In this document: in pieces, positions 50,398-61,017 of the stretch | Layout of the letters: each line of letters starts with the position of its first letter | How positions within the stretch are numbered: position 1 is the stretch's first letter | NCBI GenBank assembly: GCA_946185535.1 | Contig: CAMHJX010000016.1 | Span: forward strand, 1-64,000 | DNA length: 64,000 nucleotides | Source: an uncultured Bacteroidales bacterium | GTDB lineage: Bacteria > Bacteroidota > Bacteroidia > Bacteroidales > F082 | Direction: 5' to 3' | Translations under genes and position numbers: made by a program | Notes under the pieces: generated by a model | Seen by the model: the letters and a program-made list of their open reading frames with translations, nothing else | What the model was told of the DNA's origin: nothing | Database searches by the model: none

Positions 50398-52947
50398 TCA
50401 TCGTATCATTATCTTATTTGTGTAAACTTTCCCTTCCGCATCTGTAATGCGCAGCAGGTAAAGACCTTCCGGCAGGCTGTTCACATTGACTTCGTTGGTG
50501 CCACGGACCACCTTTACCAGTTGGCCCAAGGCGTTGTAAACCTGGATTTCAGCCGCTTCAAGGCCATCAATCCGCAGGGTCTCCGAGGCAGGATTGGGAT
50601 AGACCTCCACCCTACTGGCTTCGGTTTCGGCCATGCCATCGACCGACCAATACACCCTCACGAAATACTCGAACTCATTGTACTTCGACCTAGCAGGAGC
50701 CGAAAAACAATCATTGGCTTGGTAGTAGGCCACCACCTTATATAAATAGAAGGTTTCGTCTTCCAAGACACTATTGTCGATAGAGGAAGTGAGGCCAGGA
50801 CTCACTGTCTTGATAACCACCCAGTCCATATCCGACTCCTTGGTGCGATAGACAATGTATTGTGTCAAGCCGTCGTTGTGCTCGGGGCACACCCAAGTCA
50901 GGTTCACTTTGTTGTTGGGTGTCATCTCAAACCAAAGGTTAGTGGCGGGCTGGCAGTCTTCGCCGACGGTGACACAGGCCTCGTTGGTGGGTTCGCTCTC
51001 GCCAGAGGCACAGAAAGCCGTCACATAGTAACAATGGCCGCCATAGTTTGGTTCTTCGTCGATAAACCCTGTTTCCTGCCCTGATACCGTAGCCAACAAA
51101 GTTCCATCGCGATACACATTATAGTTTTCTGCTTCGGCTGAATCGAACCAATCCAACACTGCATAATCGTCCTCCGCAAAAGCATACAAGTCGATAGGCC
51201 TACCACAATCCTCACCATTGCCGCAACTGTTGTTCGTATGCAGGAAAACACCATCCCTCAAATCGGCAACAGGACCCGAATAGGCATAGACCACTTGGTT
51301 TTCAGCGTCCCTAATGGTAAACGAAAGCTCAACGACAGCACTGTTTCCCTTGACCCAGGCGAAAGAAACATACCCCAACGGCACATCGACCTGGAACATG
51401 GCAGACGACGATGTCGGCGAGACGCTTCCATACACCTGCATGGCATTGTTCAGCACCTGAACTTCAGCCCCTTCCCAGCCATTTGAATTGCTGGTGCTAC
51501 ATTCGATGGTCCAAGTGCAACTTGGTCCGAAGCGCACCTCGCTTTGCGTAGCCATCAGACCTTGAATGTTGTTGTTTACCGCATACACTTGATAGTCGTG
51601 CAAGCCATAAAACGGCACTTCGTCGGTGATTTCCATGGCCGCGCCAGGCGTGACATCGTTTTCGGTATATATTACGTTTCCGTCGCGCTTGACAACGATT
51701 TGGTCAATATGGGTCAGATTGCTTTCATTCAGGTTTTTGGTGGGATTGTTCCAACGCACGGTACAGGCGTAGGACACATCGGAAAGCGGCTCTACGACCA
51801 ATGCCGTTGGGGCTTTGGGCATATTGTTGAAGATGTCGAGAGGACGTGCGTCGGCAACCATCTTCTGTGCCAAGGTCCAATGCGTGTTGTAGGTGTAGAA
51901 ATTGTCGATGCTGAAATAGCCATCCAATTCACCGCCCCAGCACCAGTTGATGTGAATCAAGCCGTTGGCATCATAGCCATCTAAAACAAAGGCATGGGCC
52001 GAACCGCCATCGGCCAAGGCTCCGTAGAGGATTGGGGTGGCCAAATCCAAGGCTTCATGAATGAGAGTGACCCACTGTTTGTAGGTATAATTCTCACGCA
52101 AGATGCTGTGTGAAGTACAATAGCCAAAATAAGAGCTCAAGGCCGCAGGGATACTTTGGTGCAAGGCGCCGCTTCCGTAACTGCCATAGAACATATTGAC
52201 GCTCACACCGCAATGGTACATTGCAGTAGCCACATTCAGGTCATCGTCGTTCAACGACTCTGGCATCTCATCCCAATGATAAGTGGTCGCTCCGAAGTCG
52301 GCATATAAATCCCCGTACGGAGGACAGTTATAGGTATGAGTCCCCGTGCCGTGTTCAGGATAGTTCCAATACTTCAACACTTGCGCCATCGAAGTGGCCA
52401 CACAGCCCGCATAGGTGTAACCGCAAGGGCCGTCATCGTCTTTTGGGCAACAGGCATTATAGTAGCAGCCTTGATCCCAATGTGTAGTAATCAATGGCGG
52501 AACAACGGCTGTTTTTGCAGTCTGTGTCTGACCAAAGCGTTCCAAATTCTCCCATTCTCGGGCAATCTCGAAATCTGCTATCTGCAGGTTTTCTTCCGCA
52601 AAATCAACAGACTGGCCGTAGCCGTCGAGGAAATAGGCCAAACCATCGGGGATGTTTTCCGTGTTGAACGATCCCGTTTCGGAATAGCCCAACACCGGAC
52701 TCGTCAAGTCGCAGGCCGAAACGATGATGAAACCGCCCGAAGCGACATTGAAGACATAGCATGAGGGACGCCCTTTGCTGGTAAGGGTGGTGTAAACCCA
52801 TTCCAGTTGGGTGTTGTGCTTGAAATTGGCCTCGACGAACTTCTTGCCCAAGGCCTTGGCGCGCTGCGTATCGACATTTCCGGCGAAGGCGGAAAACGAC
52901 ACCAGTAGCAGGGCAACCATCAGGGTGTAAAATCTGTACTGTTTCAT
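50398..52947 (-). CDS. C10-family cysteine protease with T9SS sorting domain
   Basis: I start at MKQYRFYTLMVALLLVSFSAFAG (52947), giving 849 residues; the frame upstream holds the promoter. The layout is a signal peptide, an inhibitory propeptide (about 25-150), and a streptopain-like catalytic domain with Cys in GCVATSMAQVLKYWNYP near 183, His in SAHAFVLDGYD near 317 and NWCWGGELDGYF near 333 (usually NWGWGG). Fibronectin-like modules (about 380-770) and a type A T9SS sorting domain (YPNPASETLRIDG...YNALGQLVK) follow. It resembles PrtT/periodontain-type proteases and should be surface-attached. Two TACAGATTTTT boxes precede its promoter. Confidence 0.9.
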   Translation of the reverse strand: MKQYRFYTLMVALLLVSFSAFAGNVDTQRAKALGKKFVEANFKHNTQLEWVYTTLTSKGRPSCYVFNVASGGFIIVSACDLTSPVLGYSETGSFNTENIPDGLAYFLDGYGQSVDFAEENLQIADFEIAREWENLERFGQTQTAKTAVVPPLITTHWDQGCYYNACCPKDDDGPCGYTYAGCVATSMAQVLKYWNYPEHGTGTHTYNCPPYGDLYADFGATTYHWDEMPESLNDDDLNVATAMYHCGVSVNMFYGSYGSGALHQSIPAALSSYFGYCTSHSILRENYTYKQWVTLIHEALDLATPILYGALADGGSAHAFVLDGYDANGLIHINWCWGGELDGYFSIDNFYTYNTHWTLAQKMVADARPLDIFNNMPKAPTALVVEPLSDVSYACTVRWNNPTKNLNESNLTHIDQIVVKRDGNVIYTENDVTPGAAMEITDEVPFYGLHDYQVYAVNNNIQGLMATQSEVRFGPSCTWTIECSTSNSNGWEGAEVQVLNNAMQVYGSVSPTSSSAMFQVDVPLGYVSFAWVKGNSAVVELSFTIRDAENQVVYAYSGPVADLRDGVFLHTNNSCGNGEDCGRPIDLYAFAEDDYAVLDWFDSAEAENYNVYRDGTLLATVSGQETGFIDEEPNYGGHCYYVTAFCASGESEPTNEACVTVGEDCQPATNLWFEMTPNNKVNLTWVCPEHNDGLTQYIVYRTKESDMDWVVIKTVSPGLTSSIDNSVLEDETFYLYKVVAYYQANDCFSAPARSKYNEFEYFVRVYWSVDGMAETEASRVEVYPNPASETLRIDGLEAAEIQVYNALGQLVKVVRGTNEVNVNSLPEGLYLLRITDAEGKVYTNKIMIR

Positions 52948-52989: not shown

Positions 52990-52997
52990 CAAAATTA
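52990..52997 (-). promoter_or_regulatory. -7 element of the C10 protease gene
   Basis: TAATTTTG on the minus strand, 42 bp upstream of the start codon. The nearest CTTG is 22 nt upstream, slightly longer than the usual 19-21, which would fit an activator-dependent promoter. Confidence 0.6.
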
Positions 52998-53036
52998 TAT
53001 AAAAAAACAGGCAATTTTTCAAGCCCAAGGGGCTAA

Positions 53037-53101
53037 TACAGATTTTTTCTGGAACTTGGTTTTGAAAATCAATGGATTACAATAAAAATGTACAGATTTT
53101 T
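53037..53101 (-). promoter_or_regulatory. Paired TACAGATTTTT boxes upstream of the C10 protease gene
   Basis: Exact copies start at 53037 and 53091 (54 bp apart, same orientation). They lie 39 and 93 nt upstream of the -7 element at 52990-52997. Confidence 0.6.
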
Positions 53102-53114
53102 GTTGGAGAAAACC

Positions 53115-53185
53115 GCACAAAAAAGCCACCAAAAACATCCAAAATGTCCCTGTCGCCAATGGGATAGGATGGTTTTTTGGTGGCT
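53115..53185 (-). terminator. Terminator of the T9SS cargo operon
   Basis: A long hairpin with arms AGCCACCAAAAACATCC and GGATGGTTTTTTGGTGGCT (53124-53185, one bulge) contains a small inner stem. On the minus strand it is followed by TTTTTTGTGC. Confidence 0.8.
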
Positions 53186-53207
53186 CAACTGTTTTTTGGG
53201 AAATCCC

Positions 53208-55349
53208 CTATTCCTTCACCGCCACTCTTGCCGTATGGCTTCGGCCTTCGGTATCTGCAATCCGCAGCAAATAAACGCCTTGCGGCAAGTCCGTAACGGG
53301 AATTTCATTCGTGCCTTTAATGGTCTTCACCAACTGCCCAAGGGCATTGTAAACCTGAACTTCGGTGGGTTCTATGCCTTTGATTAAGACGTTTTCCTTG
53401 GCGGGATTGGGATAGACAGAAACCTGTTCTGCGGCTGTTTCCTCCACATCATCCCAACACTCACCGCCCGTCCATACGAGGTTGTCATCCTCGAAATAGC
53501 ATTGCAAATAAGAAAAGAAACTACCTGTCAGACCAGGATCAAAGCGATGAGCCACGCCCGCCAGGCTGCCAACGCCCTCAATCCACGTTTCATTTTCGTC
53601 CATTCCCCAGCCATTATTGAAAACAAACTTTTTGCGTAATGTGCCATCCTCCATCTCCACCTCCTCAATGGCAACCACTTGTATAAAACAAGGCTCATCG
53701 TAACCCACATCGAAACTATCACCGACTTGCAGGTTGAAATCGTAGTACAGCTTTTCTTCATTAAAATGCAGAAGTCCAGAGTCCCACCATCTGACATATA
53801 CTTTTTTGTCCTCTTCCCGAAAGGCACCCTCCAAGCCCGTAGAATAATGGTCACCGCCTTCCAACGTATAGTTCATCTTCCTGTACATCACACCGTCCAG
53901 CTCAATGTCGCCACCCAACCAACATATCAGATAATCGGATTCACCCCAAATGAAATCTCGTCTTGTATCCCACTGCTTCTCGCCTGTTTTTGGAATCAAA
54001 GGATAATACATTGTAATATCTTCAAAGAGTTGCGTCGTCCACACATATTCAGGCTGGACACCACTCCGTCCGGTAACGGCCACTCTTCCGTCGTCGAACA
54101 CGTAGACCGAGGAAATGGCATCGTCGCGGTCGTCCCTGTCGTGGCGATAACAGCCCGTCATTTCGCCCGTTGCGGCATCCAATTTGAGCACGATGTAATC
54201 ATAACCGTGTCCCGCCCCCAATCTTTGGCTCTGGCCACCCACATAGACATGCCCGTTTCTGACGAAAAGCGCATTACCGATGTCGGCGTTGTTGCCGCCA
54301 AACGCATAGCGGTTTTCCCAAAGCAGCTGTCCGTCGGGACTGTATTTCAGCGTGAGAATGTCGTTGTTGGTGTGGTTGGGCATTCCGTAATTCGAACCGA
54401 AGTGCCTGCCCGTTACATAGATGTTGCCTTCCTCATCTTGCACCATCGCCCTGATTTCGTCGCCCGACACATTACTGGGCAAATTGGTGCCATAATCATG
54501 CGCCCACACCAAGTTTCCTTCCGAATCGATTTTGGAAACTTTATAAGCCATTGTTGCCGTGACCAACAGATGATGGTCAAGGGTCGATTGGACGTTCGAG
54601 AATCCCCTTGTATCGCATGCGGTGCCCTCAAAAATCAGGTTGTTGTCGAGATCTAGTTTGGTCAAATGCCTGTTTGCCCCAAACAAAAGCAGCGTTCCGT
54701 CCATGGCGAAAACATCATAAAGGAAAGGATTGGCATCATTGGCATCAAAGTCTCTCTGCCACAACAGATTGCCATCAGCATCGTAGCAATACAACTGCGG
54801 GATGGTAACAGTGACAATGTAGTCATCGCCAGGTGCGGGATAATCGTATTCCCTGTAGGAGGCCAAAACCAAACGGCCATCGGAGGACAAAACCAGATGC
54901 TGGGCCATGAATGACGTGTCGGTCTCATTTTGGATGGTTTCTTCCCAAACCAAGTCGCCATCCGAAGTGAATTTCTGAAGGACAACTCTCGATTTGTAGA
55001 ACTCAAGTCGCTCATTACAAAGGATATAGACATTTTCGGAGCCATCCATCTGGTAGTCAACAATCGCCTTTTCGTAGGATGAATGGGTGCCAATTGACTT
55101 TGTTGAAACAATGGTTCCGTATATGTCATAGGTGACCATCTCCAACTGGGTTTCACCGTTGTTGAGCGTCACTCCCGTCACCTCGACGTAGTCTTTCACG
55201 TCCTCAATGCCGCGGACGACAGGGGTACTGGAAATATAGTTGATATTTCCAACTTGATAGTCTTCTGACCAAAGCAGATCAGATTGTGCCTTCGCCATGC
55301 CCGCCACTGCCATAAAGGCAAGCAAAGTATAAATCTTTAAGTTTTTCAT
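53208..55349 (-). CDS. T9SS cargo protein with beta-propeller-like repeats
   Basis: A 713-residue secreted protein with signal peptide ending MAKAQ (about 22). Residues about 40-430 carry repeated PQQ-like blade ends (GDLVWEE, GNLLWQRDF, GNLVWAHDYG, GQLLWENRYAFGG), suggesting a beta-propeller. A module at about 460-630 (VGDSFDVGYD...KKFVFNNGW...ETWIEGVGSLAG) is shared with the gene at 56686. The last 72 residues are a type A T9SS sorting domain (YPNPAKENVLIKG, YNALGQLVKT, LPQGVYLLRIAD). It overlaps the previous gene by 4 bp in a three-gene operon. Confidence 0.85.
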   Translation of the reverse strand: MKNLKIYTLLAFMAVAGMAKAQSDLLWSEDYQVGNINYISSTPVVRGIEDVKDYVEVTGVTLNNGETQLEMVTYDIYGTIVSTKSIGTHSSYEKAIVDYQMDGSENVYILCNERLEFYKSRVVLQKFTSDGDLVWEETIQNETDTSFMAQHLVLSSDGRLVLASYREYDYPAPGDDYIVTVTIPQLYCYDADGNLLWQRDFDANDANPFLYDVFAMDGTLLLFGANRHLTKLDLDNNLIFEGTACDTRGFSNVQSTLDHHLLVTATMAYKVSKIDSEGNLVWAHDYGTNLPSNVSGDEIRAMVQDEEGNIYVTGRHFGSNYGMPNHTNNDILTLKYSPDGQLLWENRYAFGGNNADIGNALFVRNGHVYVGGQSQRLGAGHGYDYIVLKLDAATGEMTGCYRHDRDDRDDAISSVYVFDDGRVAVTGRSGVQPEYVWTTQLFEDITMYYPLIPKTGEKQWDTRRDFIWGESDYLICWLGGDIELDGVMYRKMNYTLEGGDHYSTGLEGAFREEDKKVYVRWWDSGLLHFNEEKLYYDFNLQVGDSFDVGYDEPCFIQVVAIEEVEMEDGTLRKKFVFNNGWGMDENETWIEGVGSLAGVAHRFDPGLTGSFFSYLQCYFEDDNLVWTGGECWDDVEETAAEQVSVYPNPAKENVLIKGIEPTEVQVYNALGQLVKTIKGTNEIPVTDLPQGVYLLRIADTEGRSHTARVAVKE

Positions 55350-56689
55350 TGTATCGTTATTTTATTTGTGTATACTTTTCCCTCTGCATCCGCGATGCGC
55401 AATAAATAAACCCCTTCCACTAAACCACTCACATCTATATCATTCGTTCCACGCACCGTCTTCACCACCTGCCCAAGCGCATTGTAAATCCGCACTTCGG
55501 CAGCCTCGATGCCTTCAATGACAACCCTGTCTGTTGCTGGATTGGGATAAATGGTGACCACCTGCGAAACGTTTTCTCCTGTGCCCATAAGCGTGAATTG
55601 GCGGCTTTTAAGGACATTTCCTCCGGCACACGAAATGTAGAAAATGGTGTCGGTTCCGTCAATGTCATAAAGCCTGTATGTGGGAAGACCATATCCAGAA
55701 TAAAAAGTCCATGACAAGCCGTCGTCTTCAGTATATGCGACACTTCTGCCGACTCCTGGCATATCTTCCTCCCATAGCATGGATACTCCCCACCCGTTCT
55801 CGGTGAACTTGGCTCTTATGTATTCTTCATAGAATTGGAAATATCCAGAGGTTTCACCACCTACCGTTTCAAAGGAGTCAAAACCGTCATAAGTATCCAG
55901 TAGGCCATAGCAGTTGTACTCGGAGACTTGAAATACGCCAAACAATCTTATGTGATTCTTGTCGTAAAAATGGGCATAACTTATCCCCTCTGTAATGTCC
56001 GTGACATTTTCCTTCAAAACCCATGTCTCACCAAAGTCTTCCGTTTTCGCCACCCCGGCACATCTTTCTTCTGGAAACAGGAAATCATCATTTCCATAAT
56101 CCCATAGCAGATACCCAACATTGTCCTCAAAAAAAATCCCTCTTGTCTCATTGATGGTGAAATCAACGTCCAGTTTTCTCATGGTAGCACCACCATCGGT
56201 GCTTTTGTAGATGCCATCGAATGAGACAGCTACCACCAAATTATCAGTATCATTCAAAAACAATTCAGCACGGACAAATTGCCTGATTAATGTGGTGTAG
56301 CTATCAACCCATGAGAGAATGGGCTCGCCCACTTCATTCCAAGTTTCGCCTCCATCATAGGTCTTTACCAAAAACCACTGATGGACTTCCGTGTAAATGT
56401 CTAATATGGAATCACATACCGCATAGCCATTATTCGCGTCTGCAAAGCATATTTCTGTCATTTGACAACCCGTTCTGCGATACTTCTCCGCCCAGTGCGC
56501 ACCACTGTCGGTTGATTTGAGTATCACCCCGTTCTGTCCACACACAAAAATCGTATTGTCATCGATGCAGCAGACATTGTAAAGGTCTTCAGCAACTCCA
56601 GTTTGGAGATACTTCCATTGTTGTGCCTTTGTCACCCCTCCCGCCATCAGCAGGAGCGCAAGCAGGGTGAAAAGTCTAATGTATTTCAT
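55346..56689 (-). CDS. T9SS cargo protein with Asp-box (YCF48/BNR-like) propeller
   Basis: A 447-residue secreted protein with signal peptide ending VTKAQ (about 23). Asp-box motifs recur (STDSGAHWAEKY, TYDGGETWNEVG, STDGGATMRKLD, TEDFGETWVLKEN, TEDDGLSWTFYSG), the pattern of YCF48/sialidase-like beta-propellers, but no glycosidase catalytic residues are recognisable. The C-terminal 72 residues are a type A T9SS domain (YPNPATDRVVIEG, YNALGQVVKT, LVEGVYLLRIAD). It overlaps both neighbours by 4 bp (ATGA), so the three genes are translationally coupled. Confidence 0.85.
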   Translation of the reverse strand: MKYIRLFTLLALLLMAGGVTKAQQWKYLQTGVAEDLYNVCCIDDNTIFVCGQNGVILKSTDSGAHWAEKYRRTGCQMTEICFADANNGYAVCDSILDIYTEVHQWFLVKTYDGGETWNEVGEPILSWVDSYTTLIRQFVRAELFLNDTDNLVVAVSFDGIYKSTDGGATMRKLDVDFTINETRGIFFEDNVGYLLWDYGNDDFLFPEERCAGVAKTEDFGETWVLKENVTDITEGISYAHFYDKNHIRLFGVFQVSEYNCYGLLDTYDGFDSFETVGGETSGYFQFYEEYIRAKFTENGWGVSMLWEEDMPGVGRSVAYTEDDGLSWTFYSGYGLPTYRLYDIDGTDTIFYISCAGGNVLKSRQFTLMGTGENVSQVVTIYPNPATDRVVIEGIEAAEVRIYNALGQVVKTVRGTNDIDVSGLVEGVYLLRIADAEGKVYTNKITIQ

Positions 56690-57570
56690 CGTACCGTGAT
56701 TTTGTTCGTGTAAATATTTTCATCGGCATCCGCAATTCGCAGCAAATAAACCCCTTGCAGCAAATCTGTAACGGGGATGTCATTCGCATCGTGTACGGTC
56801 TTCACCAACTGGCCAAAGGAATTGTAAACCTGCACTTCGGCTGCTTCAACTCCCTCAATATGGACCACCTCGGAAGTTGGATTTGGGTAAAGAGAAATCG
56901 GTGAAATGTCCATTTCTTCCACGGCATCAATCATGCAGGTGCCGTAATACTCGTTTTGCCAAAGCAACTCGCCGTTTTGGTGGAAACACAGGGCACGGTA
57001 GTAGCCTCCACTGACATAATACCATCCGCTGAAGAGCAAGCCCATGTCGCTGCCAATGCCTTCTGTCCAAGTCTCGATGGCAACAGGCTCTCCCGTAAAG
57101 TCATATTCCAATCCGAACCAGAACTTTCTCCTGTCCTTGCCTCCAATTTGCTCTATGCTAATGGAATCAACGACAAAAAAATCAAATTCATGGAAATCGC
57201 CAAATCGCAAGGTGTCGCCGACTTGGGCAGTGAAATCATAAATCAAAATATCGGTCGCCGATTTTCTTTTCCAGACTTTGCCGTCTTCTTCCCTCAACAG
57301 GGTGGCTAATCGCGGCGTGCCTTCACCATTTCTGGTCTCCAACACTTTTGTGTATCGAACGCCATCAACGAGCGTGTCGTCCGAAAGCCAATGGACCAAA
57401 GTGCTGTAATGATGGTTTGGCGGAAAGCCAGGGTTTACGATGACATCAAGGGTGTACCATTCGTTGCCTTCCTGAATAATCGGTTCATAGTCTTGCGCCT
57501 TCGCCATGCCCTCCATTGCCAGCAACAGGAGGAGAAGGACTTTTGCCATTGTGTTGGTCGCTTTGTTCAT
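56686..57570 (-). CDS. T9SS cargo protein, first gene of three-gene operon
   Basis: I start at MNKATNTMAKVLLLLLLAMEGMAKAQ (57570), giving 294 residues. MAKVLL seven codons later is an alternative start. After the signal peptide there is one module of about 190 residues (EGNEWYTLDV..., VGDTLRFGDFHEFDFFVVDSISIEQ, KFWFGLEYDFTGEPVAIETWTEGIGSDMG) homologous to a module of the 53208-55349 protein. A type A T9SS domain closes it (YPNPTSEVVHIEG, YNSFGQLVKTV, LLQGVYLLRIAD). Function unknown. Two TACAGATTTTT boxes precede its promoter. Confidence 0.82.
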   Translation of the reverse strand: MNKATNTMAKVLLLLLLAMEGMAKAQDYEPIIQEGNEWYTLDVIVNPGFPPNHHYSTLVHWLSDDTLVDGVRYTKVLETRNGEGTPRLATLLREEDGKVWKRKSATDILIYDFTAQVGDTLRFGDFHEFDFFVVDSISIEQIGGKDRRKFWFGLEYDFTGEPVAIETWTEGIGSDMGLLFSGWYYVSGGYYRALCFHQNGELLWQNEYYGTCMIDAVEEMDISPISLYPNPTSEVVHIEGVEAAEVQVYNSFGQLVKTVHDANDIPVTDLLQGVYLLRIADADENIYTNKITVR

Positions 57571-57597
57571 TGTCTGTTGTTTTAATATTGTCGTAGG

Positions 57598-57605
57598 CAA
57601 AACTA
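57598..57605 (-). promoter_or_regulatory. -7 element of the T9SS cargo operon
   Basis: TAGTTTTG on the minus strand, 27 bp upstream of the start codon. No TTTG lies at 19-21 nt. Confidence 0.6.
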
Positions 57606-57644
57606 TAACAAAAAAGCATCAAATAAGCAACATACAAGCCAAAC

Positions 57645-57720
57645 TACAGATTTTTCTTGGTTTGAAACAATGCAAAATATTGAAATTCAATAAACTATAA
57701 AAACCGAAGTACAGATTTTT
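57645..57720 (-). promoter_or_regulatory. Paired TACAGATTTTT boxes upstream of the T9SS cargo operon
   Basis: Exact copies start at 57645 and 57710 (65 bp apart, same orientation), 39 and 104 nt upstream of the -7 element at 57598-57605. The distal copy ends 2 bp from the stop codon of the upstream regulator gene. Confidence 0.6.
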
Positions 57721-57722
57721 GT

Positions 57723-59231
57723 TTAGCCCAACAGGTCGAAAACGGGGCTTTTACCCACCTTTTTGTTGAGGTCGGAGCGGTATTTCATCACCGTGTTTTG
57801 GCTTAGTTCCAAAATCTCGGCTTCTTCCTTGATGCGGAATTTGAGAAAGTTGAGTACAAGCAAATCGCGCTCTTGTTCGCTCAAGTCGGGGTAGGTGGAT
57901 TTCAGTTTTTCATAAACATCGGGGTATGCCTTGTTGAAGGCTTCCAAGATACCCTCGCGTGAAGGGTCGGCTTTGTCGTAAAGGGTCTTCACTTCCTTCA
58001 GCAAATCCTCAAAAGTCTTTTCCTTCAATGCAGCTTGTGCCTCGGTCAATTGTTGGCTGAAGGCTTCGCGCTGCTGGTCGAAAGCCTCTTGTTGCTGTTG
58101 GTGCTCTTCGCGGAGGTCGGCTTCGGTTCGTTTGTGGCGCTTGTGGGTGGCCCAAAGCACCAGTCCAAGCGCCAAAATCACCAGCAATATGATGGCTCCT
58201 ATCAAAAGGTTCTGTCGCTGTGTTTGTCGCTTTTGCAACAAGGTATCGGCTTCCTGTTTTTCCTGAATGTAGTTGTTGAATAATTCGGTAAGTTCTGATG
58301 TTACAGGCGCGAAGGCTTCTTTTGCGTGAGGATATTGCGCCAAAAGACGCGCATATTCGTTCATCTTTTCGGTCTCGCCCAAAGCTTCATAAACCTCGTG
58401 CAAATACTCTATCGTTTGGGCTTTTGCTGTCATGTCCGAAAGACCCAATTGTTCAAACTTCTCATGAGCCCGATTCAGATACACCAGCGCCGAATCATAC
58501 TGTTTCTCCTCTTTATAAATCCAACCGATGGTCAATTCAACATCCTGGTTGTCAACTTCACTACAATGCGGAAGCAGGGCTTTCAGGTCGTGGATAACGG
58601 GTTCTGCATCGTGATGAAGCTTGTAGTCGATGATACCTTTCCTTGAGACCGACATCCTGAAATTGAGTTCGGAAGAATCGTTTTCGAAGCATCTTATTGC
58701 GCTGTCGTAGTAATAGCAAGCGCTGTCAAAACTATCACAAATGTCGAATCCATAGGCAATCAAAAACAAAGTGCTCCCAAATGATTTGCGCGAGTTCGAG
58801 TATTTCTTATTGATGGCCAAGGCTTGACGATAGAAATAAGAGGTTGCTTCCGGCAACAAGGAAATCGAATATTGGGTCCCCTGGCCCTTATAAGTTCTCT
58901 GAAGGAGATTGATTATACTCCTGTCAGGTTTTGTAAGCTGCTCTATTTCAGGAAGATTATCAACAGAAAAGCGTTCTTCCAATAGTCCCAACACTTGGTA
59001 GAATTCTTTGCAACAGACCACAGTGCTATCCATCTCCCAATAATGAATGGCATTTTGATAGAGGGTATTGGCAATGTTATATATGGAATCGGCACGAAGG
59101 CTGTCGATGGCAGTCTCTATGGTGGATGGGTTATTTTGTGAAGTCGTGACGCTCCTCGGCTCTTTAGGATTGCATCTTATCAGCATTGCCATCCCGAACA
59201 TCAAAAACAGTAGGTAAAACAATCGTTTCAT
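57723..59231 (-). CDS. Membrane-spanning TPR regulator with C-terminal HTH
   Basis: A 502-residue protein. The N-terminus MKRLFYLLFLMFGMAMLIRCN looks like a lipoprotein signal (Cys about 20). Residues about 30-330 contain degenerate TPR helices. One membrane segment follows (LLIGAIILLVILALGLVLWA, about 342-362), then a Gln/Glu-rich coiled coil (about 365-415) and a C-terminal LuxR-like helix-turn-helix (YPDLSEQERDLLVLNFLKFRIKEEAEILELSQNTVMKYRSDLNKKVG, about 445-495). This is a one-component design with a periplasmic sensor and a cytoplasmic DNA-binding end. It is a paralogue of the next gene. It is preceded by two TACAGATTTTT boxes, suggesting autoregulation. Confidence 0.82.
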   Translation of the reverse strand: MKRLFYLLFLMFGMAMLIRCNPKEPRSVTTSQNNPSTIETAIDSLRADSIYNIANTLYQNAIHYWEMDSTVVCCKEFYQVLGLLEERFSVDNLPEIEQLTKPDRSIINLLQRTYKGQGTQYSISLLPEATSYFYRQALAINKKYSNSRKSFGSTLFLIAYGFDICDSFDSACYYYDSAIRCFENDSSELNFRMSVSRKGIIDYKLHHDAEPVIHDLKALLPHCSEVDNQDVELTIGWIYKEEKQYDSALVYLNRAHEKFEQLGLSDMTAKAQTIEYLHEVYEALGETEKMNEYARLLAQYPHAKEAFAPVTSELTELFNNYIQEKQEADTLLQKRQTQRQNLLIGAIILLVILALGLVLWATHKRHKRTEADLREEHQQQQEAFDQQREAFSQQLTEAQAALKEKTFEDLLKEVKTLYDKADPSREGILEAFNKAYPDVYEKLKSTYPDLSEQERDLLVLNFLKFRIKEEAEILELSQNTVMKYRSDLNKKVGKSPVFDLLG

Positions 59232-59236
59232 AGGCG

Positions 59237-59244
59237 CAAAAATA
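59237..59244 (-). promoter_or_regulatory. -7 element of the first TPR-HTH regulator gene
   Basis: TATTTTTG on the minus strand, only 5 bp upstream of the ATG. The message would be leaderless or nearly so. Confidence 0.6.
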
Positions 59245-59281
59245 ACAAAAAACCACGAAACATTCTACCTCAAAGGCCAAG

Positions 59282-59348
59282 TACAGATTTTTGCTTCTTA
59301 CTCACGCTGATAATCAATGCGTTGCAAGAAAAAAAAGTACAGATTTTT
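59282..59348 (-). promoter_or_regulatory. Paired TACAGATTTTT boxes upstream of the first TPR-HTH regulator gene
   Basis: Exact copies start at 59282 and 59338 (56 bp apart), 37 and 93 nt upstream of the -7 element at 59237-59244. The distal copy lies next to the stop codon of the second regulator gene. Confidence 0.6.
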
Positions 59349-59349
59349 C

Positions 59350-61017
59350 TCAGTCGGTCAGAATGGAAAACGAATCAAAACCAACTTTTTTGTTGAGCTT
59401 GGAGCGGTATTTTGCCACCGTATTTTCGCTCAAGCCAAGCAGGTCGGCCTCTTCTTTGATGCGGAAGCCGAGGAACGATAGAACTACGAGATTGCGTTCC
59501 GTTTTGTTGAGGTCGGGATAGGCCGATTTCATCTTCTCAACACCTTGGGGATAGGTTGCCTCGAAAGCCTCCACGATGCGCTGCATGCGGTCTTTCTGCC
59601 CCGATTGGTAAATCGCAATCACTTGCTGTTGCAGCATGTCGCGCTGCTGTGTGGTGAGTTGCTCCAACTCCGCTTGCAGTTGGCGTTGCGCCTCGCGGAG
59701 ACGATGGGTTTCGTTCTCTTTGTTGCGCCTATAAAAATAGACAAAGACAACCAACAGTAGCAAGCCGACCAACAGCAAGGCCAATAGCCAATAAAGCCTT
59801 CTGTTTTTCTGTTGATGCAACGTTTCCTGTTGTTGGAGTTCCTCTTGCTTTTCGAATTCCTCCTGCACTTTCACCATGTCTTTCATGTGCTTTTCGGGAT
59901 GCTCCATGGCTTGCATCATATCGGCATAGGCAACAGCCTTTTTCTCGTCGCCCAATGCCTTGCATGCCTCATAAAGATGAACATACAACATGTAGTTTTC
60001 AAAAAACCTGTCATTGGCTTTGGCCACTTCAATGGCTTGTTCACCATAGAAAATGCAGGAATCGTACTGCTGCTGAATGTAATAGGTATCAGAGAGTTCC
60101 TCGAGCAACAACTGCTTGACATAACCATAGCCATAATCCGACGTGTCGGTCAAACACGCAAAGCCCTCGTTGATTTCTTCAATGGCCTTGTCAAGAAAAC
60201 CTTGGCGTTCCTCTTCCGATGCATAGTAATTCCCGCTTACCCGATAATTGTAATAACTGGCAATGCTACGATGCGTTTGAGCAATATCATCGGCATAGCC
60301 TAAGGCCTCGGCTTCGAGCAGTGCTTTCTGAAAATAGACCAAACAGCTATCGAATTCCTGAGTGAGAAGATAAGAGAAAGCCAAAGAGGTCGCAGAACTC
60401 TCGCGGTTATAATGGTCACCCATTTTGGCGAAATAGGTATCAGCGAGCCTCAATGGAGTGATGGCCTCAGCAAAGTAAACCGATGAGGTATAAGTCATGC
60501 CGAGTTCAAGATAGATGAAATACTTGAGATTGTCGATCACCGTCTGCTCATCGGTGGGTTTCGGCGAAAACTCCACCAAACGCTTGTCCACATGACGGCA
60601 TGCTTCGATGCTCTTCTGGGCTTGCAACATGGATTCGAGTGCGATCTGTTTCGGCTGCTGCATATTGGCCGACTTGTTTGCCATGAGCCAATAGGTCCAA
60701 GCCTCATGATACTTGTCGTCGCTTCCAATAAACTGGTTACAAGCCACTTGAGACAACGAATCGAGCTCTGCACCAAACCTTTTTTTGTTATTGATAAGCA
60801 AAGCACGCAACAAGGAATAATGTGCTTGTTCCTGATTTGAAAGGACACTGACATTCAACGTGTCGAGAATTTGCATGGCATCATCGGGCTTTTGCTGCAA
60901 GAAGCACTCCACGCGATAAAGCATGTCCTCCTCGGGTGGTGGCGGCGTTTCGTGCTTGGAGCAGGCGGCCACCAACACGACAAAAAGCAAAAGTCCTATG
61001 GGAAACAAGCGTTTCAT
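59350..61017 (-). CDS. Membrane-spanning TPR regulator with C-terminal HTH, paralogue
   Basis: A 555-residue paralogue of the downstream gene. It has a clear lipobox (VVLVAACSKHE, Cys about 19), a TPR-like region (about 40-380), one membrane segment (LYWLLALLLVGLLLLVVFVYFY, about 405-428), a coiled coil and a C-terminal HTH (YPDLNKTERNLVVLSFLGFRIKEEADLLGLSENTVAKYRSKLNKKVG). The lipobox raises the possibility that the N-terminus is lipid-anchored while the C-terminus reaches the cytoplasm. Unlike its paralogue it has no TACAGATTTTT box upstream. Ligand and targets are unknown. Confidence 0.82.
   Translation of the reverse strand: MKRLFPIGLLLFVVLVAACSKHETPPPPEEDMLYRVECFLQQKPDDAMQILDTLNVSVLSNQEQAHYSLLRALLINNKKRFGAELDSLSQVACNQFIGSDDKYHEAWTYWLMANKSANMQQPKQIALESMLQAQKSIEACRHVDKRLVEFSPKPTDEQTVIDNLKYFIYLELGMTYTSSVYFAEAITPLRLADTYFAKMGDHYNRESSATSLAFSYLLTQEFDSCLVYFQKALLEAEALGYADDIAQTHRSIASYYNYRVSGNYYASEEERQGFLDKAIEEINEGFACLTDTSDYGYGYVKQLLLEELSDTYYIQQQYDSCIFYGEQAIEVAKANDRFFENYMLYVHLYEACKALGDEKKAVAYADMMQAMEHPEKHMKDMVKVQEEFEKQEELQQQETLHQQKNRRLYWLLALLLVGLLLLVVFVYFYRRNKENETHRLREAQRQLQAELEQLTTQQRDMLQQQVIAIYQSGQKDRMQRIVEAFEATYPQGVEKMKSAYPDLNKTERNLVVLSFLGFRIKEEADLLGLSENTVAKYRSKLNKKVGFDSFSILTD

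Follow-up and report, generated by a model that had tools for sequence, protein, structure and literature searches.

Paired 11-bp boxes covary with the recognition helix of adjacent TPR-HTH proteins in an uncultured Bacteroidales bacterium and its relatives

The 64,000-nucleotide stretch analysed here (positions 1 to 64,000 of contig CAMHJX010000016.1, assembly GCA_946185535.1, from an uncultured Bacteroidales bacterium), hereafter called the window, carries six exact copies of an 11-bp box arranged in three pairs beside secreted-protein genes and two genes, TPR-HTH1 and TPR-HTH2, whose products combine tetratricopeptide repeats (TPR) with a helix-turn-helix (HTH). We consider it likely that the boxes are operators bound by a membrane-held TPR-HTH regulator, which would activate the neighbouring secreted-protein gene. 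Across a family of paralogs the spelling of the boxes covaries with the recognition helix of the adjacent gene product and the boxes are inherited together with the regulator gene through changes of the cargo gene, and the TPR-HTH proteins themselves are therefore implicated as readers. An initial annotation of the window had suggested activator sites with a TPR-HTH protein as first candidate, a suggestion supported by covariation and co-inheritance, the position of the sites being what speaks for activation.

Three pairs of exact boxes in the window

The word TACAGATTTTT on the plus strand, which reads AAAAATCTGTA in gene direction, is present in the window as six exact copies of a single orientation; they were recovered at the positions given by the initial annotation, with no further exact copy. 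Read along the minus strand, the locus comprises in turn TPR-HTH1, pair 3, TPR-HTH2, pair 2, three genes for cargo of the type IX secretion system (T9SS), pair 1 and a C10 peptidase gene:

59350..61017, minus strand: TPR-HTH1 regulator gene, 555 amino acids (aa), with a lipobox-like signal, one strong hydrophobic segment and the helix LSENTVAKYRSKL
59338..59348, minus strand: pair 3 box 1 (AAAAATCTGTA), 1 nt past the TPR-HTH1 stop
59307..59317, minus strand: pair 3 central repeat TTGATTATCAG
59282..59292, minus strand: pair 3 box 2
59237..59244, minus strand: pair 3 -7 element TATTTTTG, 5 nt from the TPR-HTH2 ATG
57723..59231, minus strand: TPR-HTH2 regulator gene, 502 aa, with the helix LSQNTVMKYRSDL
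57710..57720, minus strand: pair 2 box 1, 2 nt past the TPR-HTH2 stop
57680..57690, minus strand: pair 2 central repeat TTGAATTTCAA
57645..57655, minus strand: pair 2 box 2
57628..57630, minus strand: pair 2 TTG, 25 bp upstream of the -7 element
57598..57605, minus strand: pair 2 -7 element TAGTTTTG
56686..57570, minus strand: T9SS cargo gene 1, Por_Secre_tail
55346..56689, minus strand: T9SS cargo gene 2, Por_Secre_tail and weak sortilin/BNR-like matches
53208..55349, minus strand: T9SS cargo gene 3, Por_Secre_tail and PQQ_2
53091..53101, minus strand: pair 1 box 1
53062..53072, minus strand: pair 1 central repeat TTGATTTTCAA
53037..53047, minus strand: pair 1 box 2
53020..53022, minus strand: pair 1 TTG, 25 bp upstream of the -7 element
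52990..52997, minus strand: pair 1 -7 element TAATTTTG
50398..52947, minus strand: C10 peptidase gene, Peptidase_C10 (E 3e-54), Inhibitor_I69 and a T9SS tail

All four cargo genes under pairs 1 and 2 have a Por_Secre_tail (T9SS type A). Two features had been overlooked by the initial annotation, namely that pairs 3 and 2 start 1 and 2 nt past a TPR-HTH stop codon and that a central TTGAnnnTCAA repeat lies between the boxes of the window pairs. Its gaps to the -7 element were reproduced, with 39, 39 and 37 nt for the proximal copies and 93, 104 and 93 nt for the distal ones. Its claim that a -33 element is lacking holds for the TPR-HTH2 promoter and fails for the other two of the three window promoters, in which a TTG conserved in the family precedes the -7 element by 25 bp. 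In the pair 3 region (59231-59292) the -7 element ends 5 nt before the TPR-HTH2 ATG, in a promoter without TTG; the TPR-HTH2 message would be leaderless or begin at a later codon, and behind this pair a second regulator has perhaps replaced a cargo gene. Beyond the window, a third TPR-HTH gene lies upstream on the same contig (L124, G000:C16:69355-69831) with an imperfect TAGTGGA-type pair, and further Por_Secre_tail genes are found between the window end and this gene.

The exact box is local. The assembly of this bacterium (86 contigs with 3,673,387 bases in total, 93% complete) has six occurrences of the exact 11-mer, all at this locus, and one of the reversed control word, so that the whole-genome scan which the initial annotation had called for showed no scatter over the 3.67 Mb. 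When one mismatch is allowed, the assembly holds 118 box sites compared to 67 for the reversed control; locality is therefore a property of the exact word only. Within the window, nine sites with at most one mismatch were counted against a shuffled mean of 1.6, and none of 100 shuffles reached nine. The helices of TPR-HTH1 and TPR-HTH2 are associated with one and the same box at other loci, and the two proteins probably share all three window operators.

Box pairs behind TPR-HTH paralogs and their spelling

Many box spellings are found across a paralogous family, and that of the initial annotation is one of them. We gathered 164 distinct C-termini, 163 of them with at least 180 nt downstream, and searched for an exact repeated 11-mer with a spacing of 40-80 bp, from -20 to +180 of the stop codon. 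Such a pair was found behind 48/163 TPR-HTH genes, compared to a mean of 1.4 in 20 shuffled sets and 3/161 in a within-gene control. The spacings are 54 (15 pairs), 55 (8), 56 (2), 65 (10), 66 (6), 67 (6) and 78 bp (1), which places 47/48 in a class of 54-56 bp (25) or of 65-67 bp (22), the two differing by one helical turn. For the window spelling itself, 13/60 genomes contain a total of 16 exact AAAAATCTGTA pairs 49-71 bp apart (reversed control 0/60); ten start at most 2 nt from a TPR-HTH stop, two precede a C10 protease gene (in the window and in G021), another has been moved away by an insert, and for three the available sequence does not allow an upstream gene to be read.

In order to compare operators in register, rows were filtered for at most two box mismatches, permitted spacings, score, a readable helix and a -7-like element located 46-53 bp from box 2; 74/163 rows passed, 89 were dropped, and five rows were shifted by hand. 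Within the prefiltered range of 46-53 bp, the distance from box 2 to the TAnnTTTG-like -7 element is 50 bp in 50 loci, 49 in 17, 48 in 5 and 47 in 2, and the spacing described for the window by the initial annotation is thus kept in relatives, at 47-50 bp start to start over the 74 registered loci. A TTGAnnnTCAA repeat with none or one of its eight letters changed lies between the boxes at 53/74 loci, compared to 49/1480 shuffled spacers. Most spellings have this inverted repeat, to which a shared factor may bind. The repeat is mostly 29-31 bp from box 1, and its distance to box 2 is mostly 25 bp in the short class and 34-36 bp in the long class; the extra turn is therefore located between the repeat and box 2. 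In a less redundant set of 55 loci, TTG is frequent at +25 to +27 (T 49, T 36, G 40). Autoregulation was considered as well, and a search of the 74 registered loci, some with a short upstream part, returned as extra pairs just those of the tandem TPR-HTH1/TPR-HTH2 in two genomes; a general self-operator is unsupported.

Activator sites usually lie upstream of core promoter elements, and we infer activation because box 2 is upstream of the core promoter. It is unlikely that the TPR-HTH protein binds the paired boxes and represses, a loop or oligomer keeping the promoter off until a signal arrives: two sites in helical phase at a spacing of 54-67 bp would allow looping and a positive action of the regulator is not known, whereas box 2 is placed upstream of the TTG and -7 elements without overlap, and at the -33 place two of the three window promoters have a TTG only.

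Box 1 and box 2 of one locus have the same six variable letters in 57/74 cases, compared to 557/5402 for boxes of different loci, a comparison in which the filter favours within-locus agreement. The residue at helix position 7 goes with letter 4 of box 2, Q with A in 14/14 loci, R with T in 3/3 and K with G in 52/57. When loci are grouped into 32 clusters, this pair (z 13.7) and helix position 1 with letter 5 (z 12.6) are the strongest of all HTH-column/box-column pairs, and letters 1-3 go with the hypervariable helix position 6 (z 5.1, 3.8 and 3.9). None of 5000 permutations reached the observed value in a partial Mantel test, and a triplet in the helix ranked first in a Mantel scan of 50 triplets. 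Common spellings are TCTGTA for helices with M or A together with K, CCTATA for T, TGTGTA/TGTATA for R, CTTGTA/CTTATA for N, TCCGTA for E, CCTTGA for YR and TGTGGA for R/KENTVAK; natural boxes include AAAAACCTATA and AAAACTTGTA. Threonine at helix position 6 is found with CCTATA in two separate clades, and on a tree built without the helix two to three of three independent V to A/T pairs are concordant, too few for significance.

Several observations weigh against reading this association as recognition by the helix. A gene and a site that are linked co-diverge whether or not they are functionally tied, columns of the HTH beyond the helix score up to z 8.4, as expected from shared descent, and a triplet outside the helix (KEE) ranked second of 50 in the Mantel scan. 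The rule has exceptions (L061, box 2 of L008, TK with A in L011 and L040, LTENTAQK with GTA), and M at the helix pairs with both TCT and CCT. On the same tree the independent Q/K pairs are concordant in 3/3 cases, again too few for significance, and matched disjoint pairs, compared by rounded means, are significant in two of four identity bands (p 0.008 and 0.014; the others 0.06 and 0.20). Besides, 89/163 rows are outside the covariation set, 20 without a candidate pair, 61 having failed on mismatches, score or -7 element and the rest having an unreadable helix. Among them are most of 11 rows with the helix LSQNTVMKYRSNL, mostly short and TPR-less, for which the helix predicts a box; one passed, with TCTATA.

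Proteins with the LSQNTVMKYRSNL helix (L020, L024, L025, L031, L034, L064, L065 and L069) have a related C-terminus and mostly about 270-320 aa, without a box pair directly behind the gene; their targets may be elsewhere. L008 (G021:C6:1620-6125) is a TPR-HTH2 ortholog (96% identical) with TCTGTA as box 1, CCTATA as box 2 and an unrelated downstream gene, an arrangement that is perhaps intermediate.

Cargo exchange behind the regulator and its boxes

As read from the sequences, the regulator and its boxes stay together while the cargo gene changes. We found 72 downstream products, 47 of them complete, and scanned 46 after leaving out one that is itself a regulator; 30/46 carry a Por_Secre_tail and 2/46 a CHU_C match. 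The genome of the window has at least 150 Por_Secre_tail genes, with 150 of 199 candidates scored. Regulators at least 90% identical with unrelated cargo have the same box 1 in 16/16 pairs and the same box 2 in 13/16. Over the 16 pairs the identity is 0.88 on the operator side and 0.62 on the transcript side, compared to backgrounds of 0.65 and 0.60. When the cargo is the same and the regulators are less than 60% identical, the same box 2 is found in 3/25 pairs and the identities are 0.64 and 0.66. In both comparisons pairs share members, so that the events are not independent. For regulators at 70% identity with a cargo change, box 2 is shared in 26/60 pairs, because that band mixes helix types.

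The joints of these swaps were judged by eye in eleven chosen alignments, about five to six of which break near the core promoter (for example L152/L083, L043/L215, L102/L176, L043/L022 and L010/L058), while L019/L079, L077/L019 and L097/L225 break in or past the signal-peptide region. The genes downstream of L152, L083, L184 and L110 encode different cargo bodies and have near-identical signal-peptide DNA; such shared DNA might aid exchange by homologous recombination. In G031, AAA ATPase and DUF3226-like genes stand between the regulator stop and the boxes, and the boxes stay with the cargo. In this insert (L108:437-2287, G031:C41) the AAA_21 ATPase matches the HEC-01A, AbiLi and AriA models of PADLOC and the DUF3226-like gene matches none.

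An exchange of cargo genes behind near-identical regulators would also be seen if the boxes were recombination or mobile-element sites for cargo cassettes. We find this hardly credible, since the breaks visible in the chosen alignments are near the -7 element or in the signal-peptide region and not at the boxes, and since a fixed distance from box 2 to the -7 element would be unexpected. It is also very unlikely that a different DNA-binding protein reads the boxes and that the TPR-HTH genes are mere neighbours: the C10 protease pair adjoins no regulator gene and the eleven HTH proteins with a matching helix are mostly without pairs, whereas the letters of the boxes vary together with the helix encoded by the adjacent gene and the boxes follow the regulator through cargo changes.

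The TPR-HTH proteins, their relatives and a proposed mechanism

Among 61 full-length family members, Pfam GerE matches 32 at E <= 0.01 (best 7e-6), with no match at 1e-3 in TPR-HTH1 or TPR-HTH2 alone. At the same E <= 0.01, TPR_12 matches 24 members, TPR_2 23, TPR_8 21 and DUF6377 (PF19904) 19; TPR-HTH2 alone has a weak TPR_1 match (E 0.0024), and the PF19904 gathering cut-off of 36.7 bits is missed by TPR-HTH2 (25.5 bits) and by TPR-HTH1, which has no match. Neither window protein has a receiver, histidine kinase or AraC-type HTH match at 1e-3, nor a sigma region 2, just a weak region-4 match below cut-off. Both have one strong hydrophobic 19-mer before the coil (mean hydropathy 3.0-3.1), and Cys20 is near-invariant across the family; with their lipobox-like start, the regulators are probably membrane-held. 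Compared to structures, the HTH profile matches EsrB (7vim_A, E 7e-5), DesR (0.014), GerE (0.08), FixJ (0.14) and also DevR. Close named relatives of TPR-HTH2 come from Bacteroidales metagenome-assembled genomes, including RUG (rumen) and RGIG (ruminant gut) bins. Protein and profile searches of rumen genomes revealed many TPR-HTH paralogs in the genus, with 18 family matches within one genome at E <= 0.01, and at E <= 1e-20 the C-terminal profile is found in 5/393 genomes drawn from the order, in 2/206 genera.

We propose that TPR-HTH proteins are one-component regulators in which a lipobox-like signal and the TPR would lie outside the cytoplasm, followed by one transmembrane helix and, on the cytoplasmic side, a coiled coil and then a LuxR/GerE-like HTH. 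Through recognition-helix residues the HTH would read the variable half of the 11-bp box (AAAAA plus six letters, for example TCTGTA). Two or more subunits would sit on the two direct-repeat boxes, which are about five or six helical turns apart on one DNA face and have the inverted repeat between them. Relative to the -7 element, box 2 lies about 50 bp upstream and box 1 about 104-117 bp, and the bound subunits would activate the neighbouring secreted-protein gene or operon in response to a signal presumably coming from the envelope or from secretion. Regulator gene and boxes would form a compact unit behind which cargo genes are exchanged.

The HTH resembles that of LuxR/FixJ/NarL (GerE-type) regulators such as EsrB, DevR, GerE and FixJ. 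In an alignment with NarL, the hypervariable helix residue falls on Lys188 and the one after it on Val189, which we take to be base-contacting residues (confirmation in the literature was not found). In contrast to NarL/FixJ regulators, TPR-HTH proteins have no receiver and are TPR proteins with a hydrophobic segment, and their sites are direct repeats 54-67 bp apart, unlike those of NarL, which are close inverted half-sites. Local regulators of Bacteroidota surface systems include SusR, hybrid two-component systems and extracytoplasmic function (ECF) sigma/anti-sigma pairs, which likewise include many linked paralogs, each thought to control the neighbouring surface system. The window proteins differ from these in being without kinase, receiver or sigma region 2 and in a private paired operator that tracks the recognition helix. 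Searching an open-access library, which lacks most subscription papers, yielded no description of operators of the TPR-HTH family.

A similar paired layout, with other box spellings, is seen at some loci of DUF6377 (PF19904) TPR proteins of Bacteroidia, which suggests that it is used beyond the rumen lineage. This claim is carried by 55 DUF6377 loci scanned in other families, of which two lie outside the order; an exact 11-mer pair is present behind the gene in 7/55 cases, compared to 11/1100 in shuffles; six pairs are spaced at 65-67 bp, and the seventh, at 56, has low-complexity letters. ACTACTT goes with the helix SLSTIYNYRT at four DUF6377 loci from three families, one of these families being outside the order. 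G062, from another family, has the same layout, with AAAAACCTTGA twice at a spacing of 55. An anchored test on 33 loci of other families with a usable -7 element is suggestive, with 5 pairs at <=1 mismatch against 1, 1 and 0 at three sets of control spacings, and 10 at <=2 mismatches against 5, 2 and 0. No paper on DUF6377 by name was found in the open-access literature. The BT3442 family of Bacteroides (NF053779) matches the HTH part of TPR-HTH1 weakly (E 2e-9), and the window proteins score 17.9 and 36.7 bits against its cut-off of 940. According to a passage of PMC2954219, the TPR protein BT_3442 belongs to a putative operon that also includes MACPF and lipoproteins. This family was rejected as a carrier of the layout, having exact pairs at 3/29 loci, with spacings of 44, 65 and 78, compared to 7/290 in shuffles.

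For the Bacteroidia, we see an even chance that there is a large membrane-spanning lipobox-TPR-HTH family with private phased operator pairs, each in the promoter behind the regulator's gene, in which a readable helix code separates the many paralogs of one cell and secreted cargo is exchanged behind a constant unit, with the joint at the core promoter or signal-peptide region; if true, this would amount to a plug-and-play platform for expression that occurs naturally. Each part belongs to a known kind, and as far as we have seen the private tandem operator and the readable code are new for a TPR-HTH family. To our knowledge little is known about the regulation of individual T9SS cargo genes, and here sequence alone has yielded an operator, a likely reader for it and part of a protein-DNA code, such that a small number of helix residues may suffice to predict targets. 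A cell with several paralogs, each matched to its boxes, is a natural system in which to study how transcription factors diverge in specificity after duplication and avoid cross-talk.

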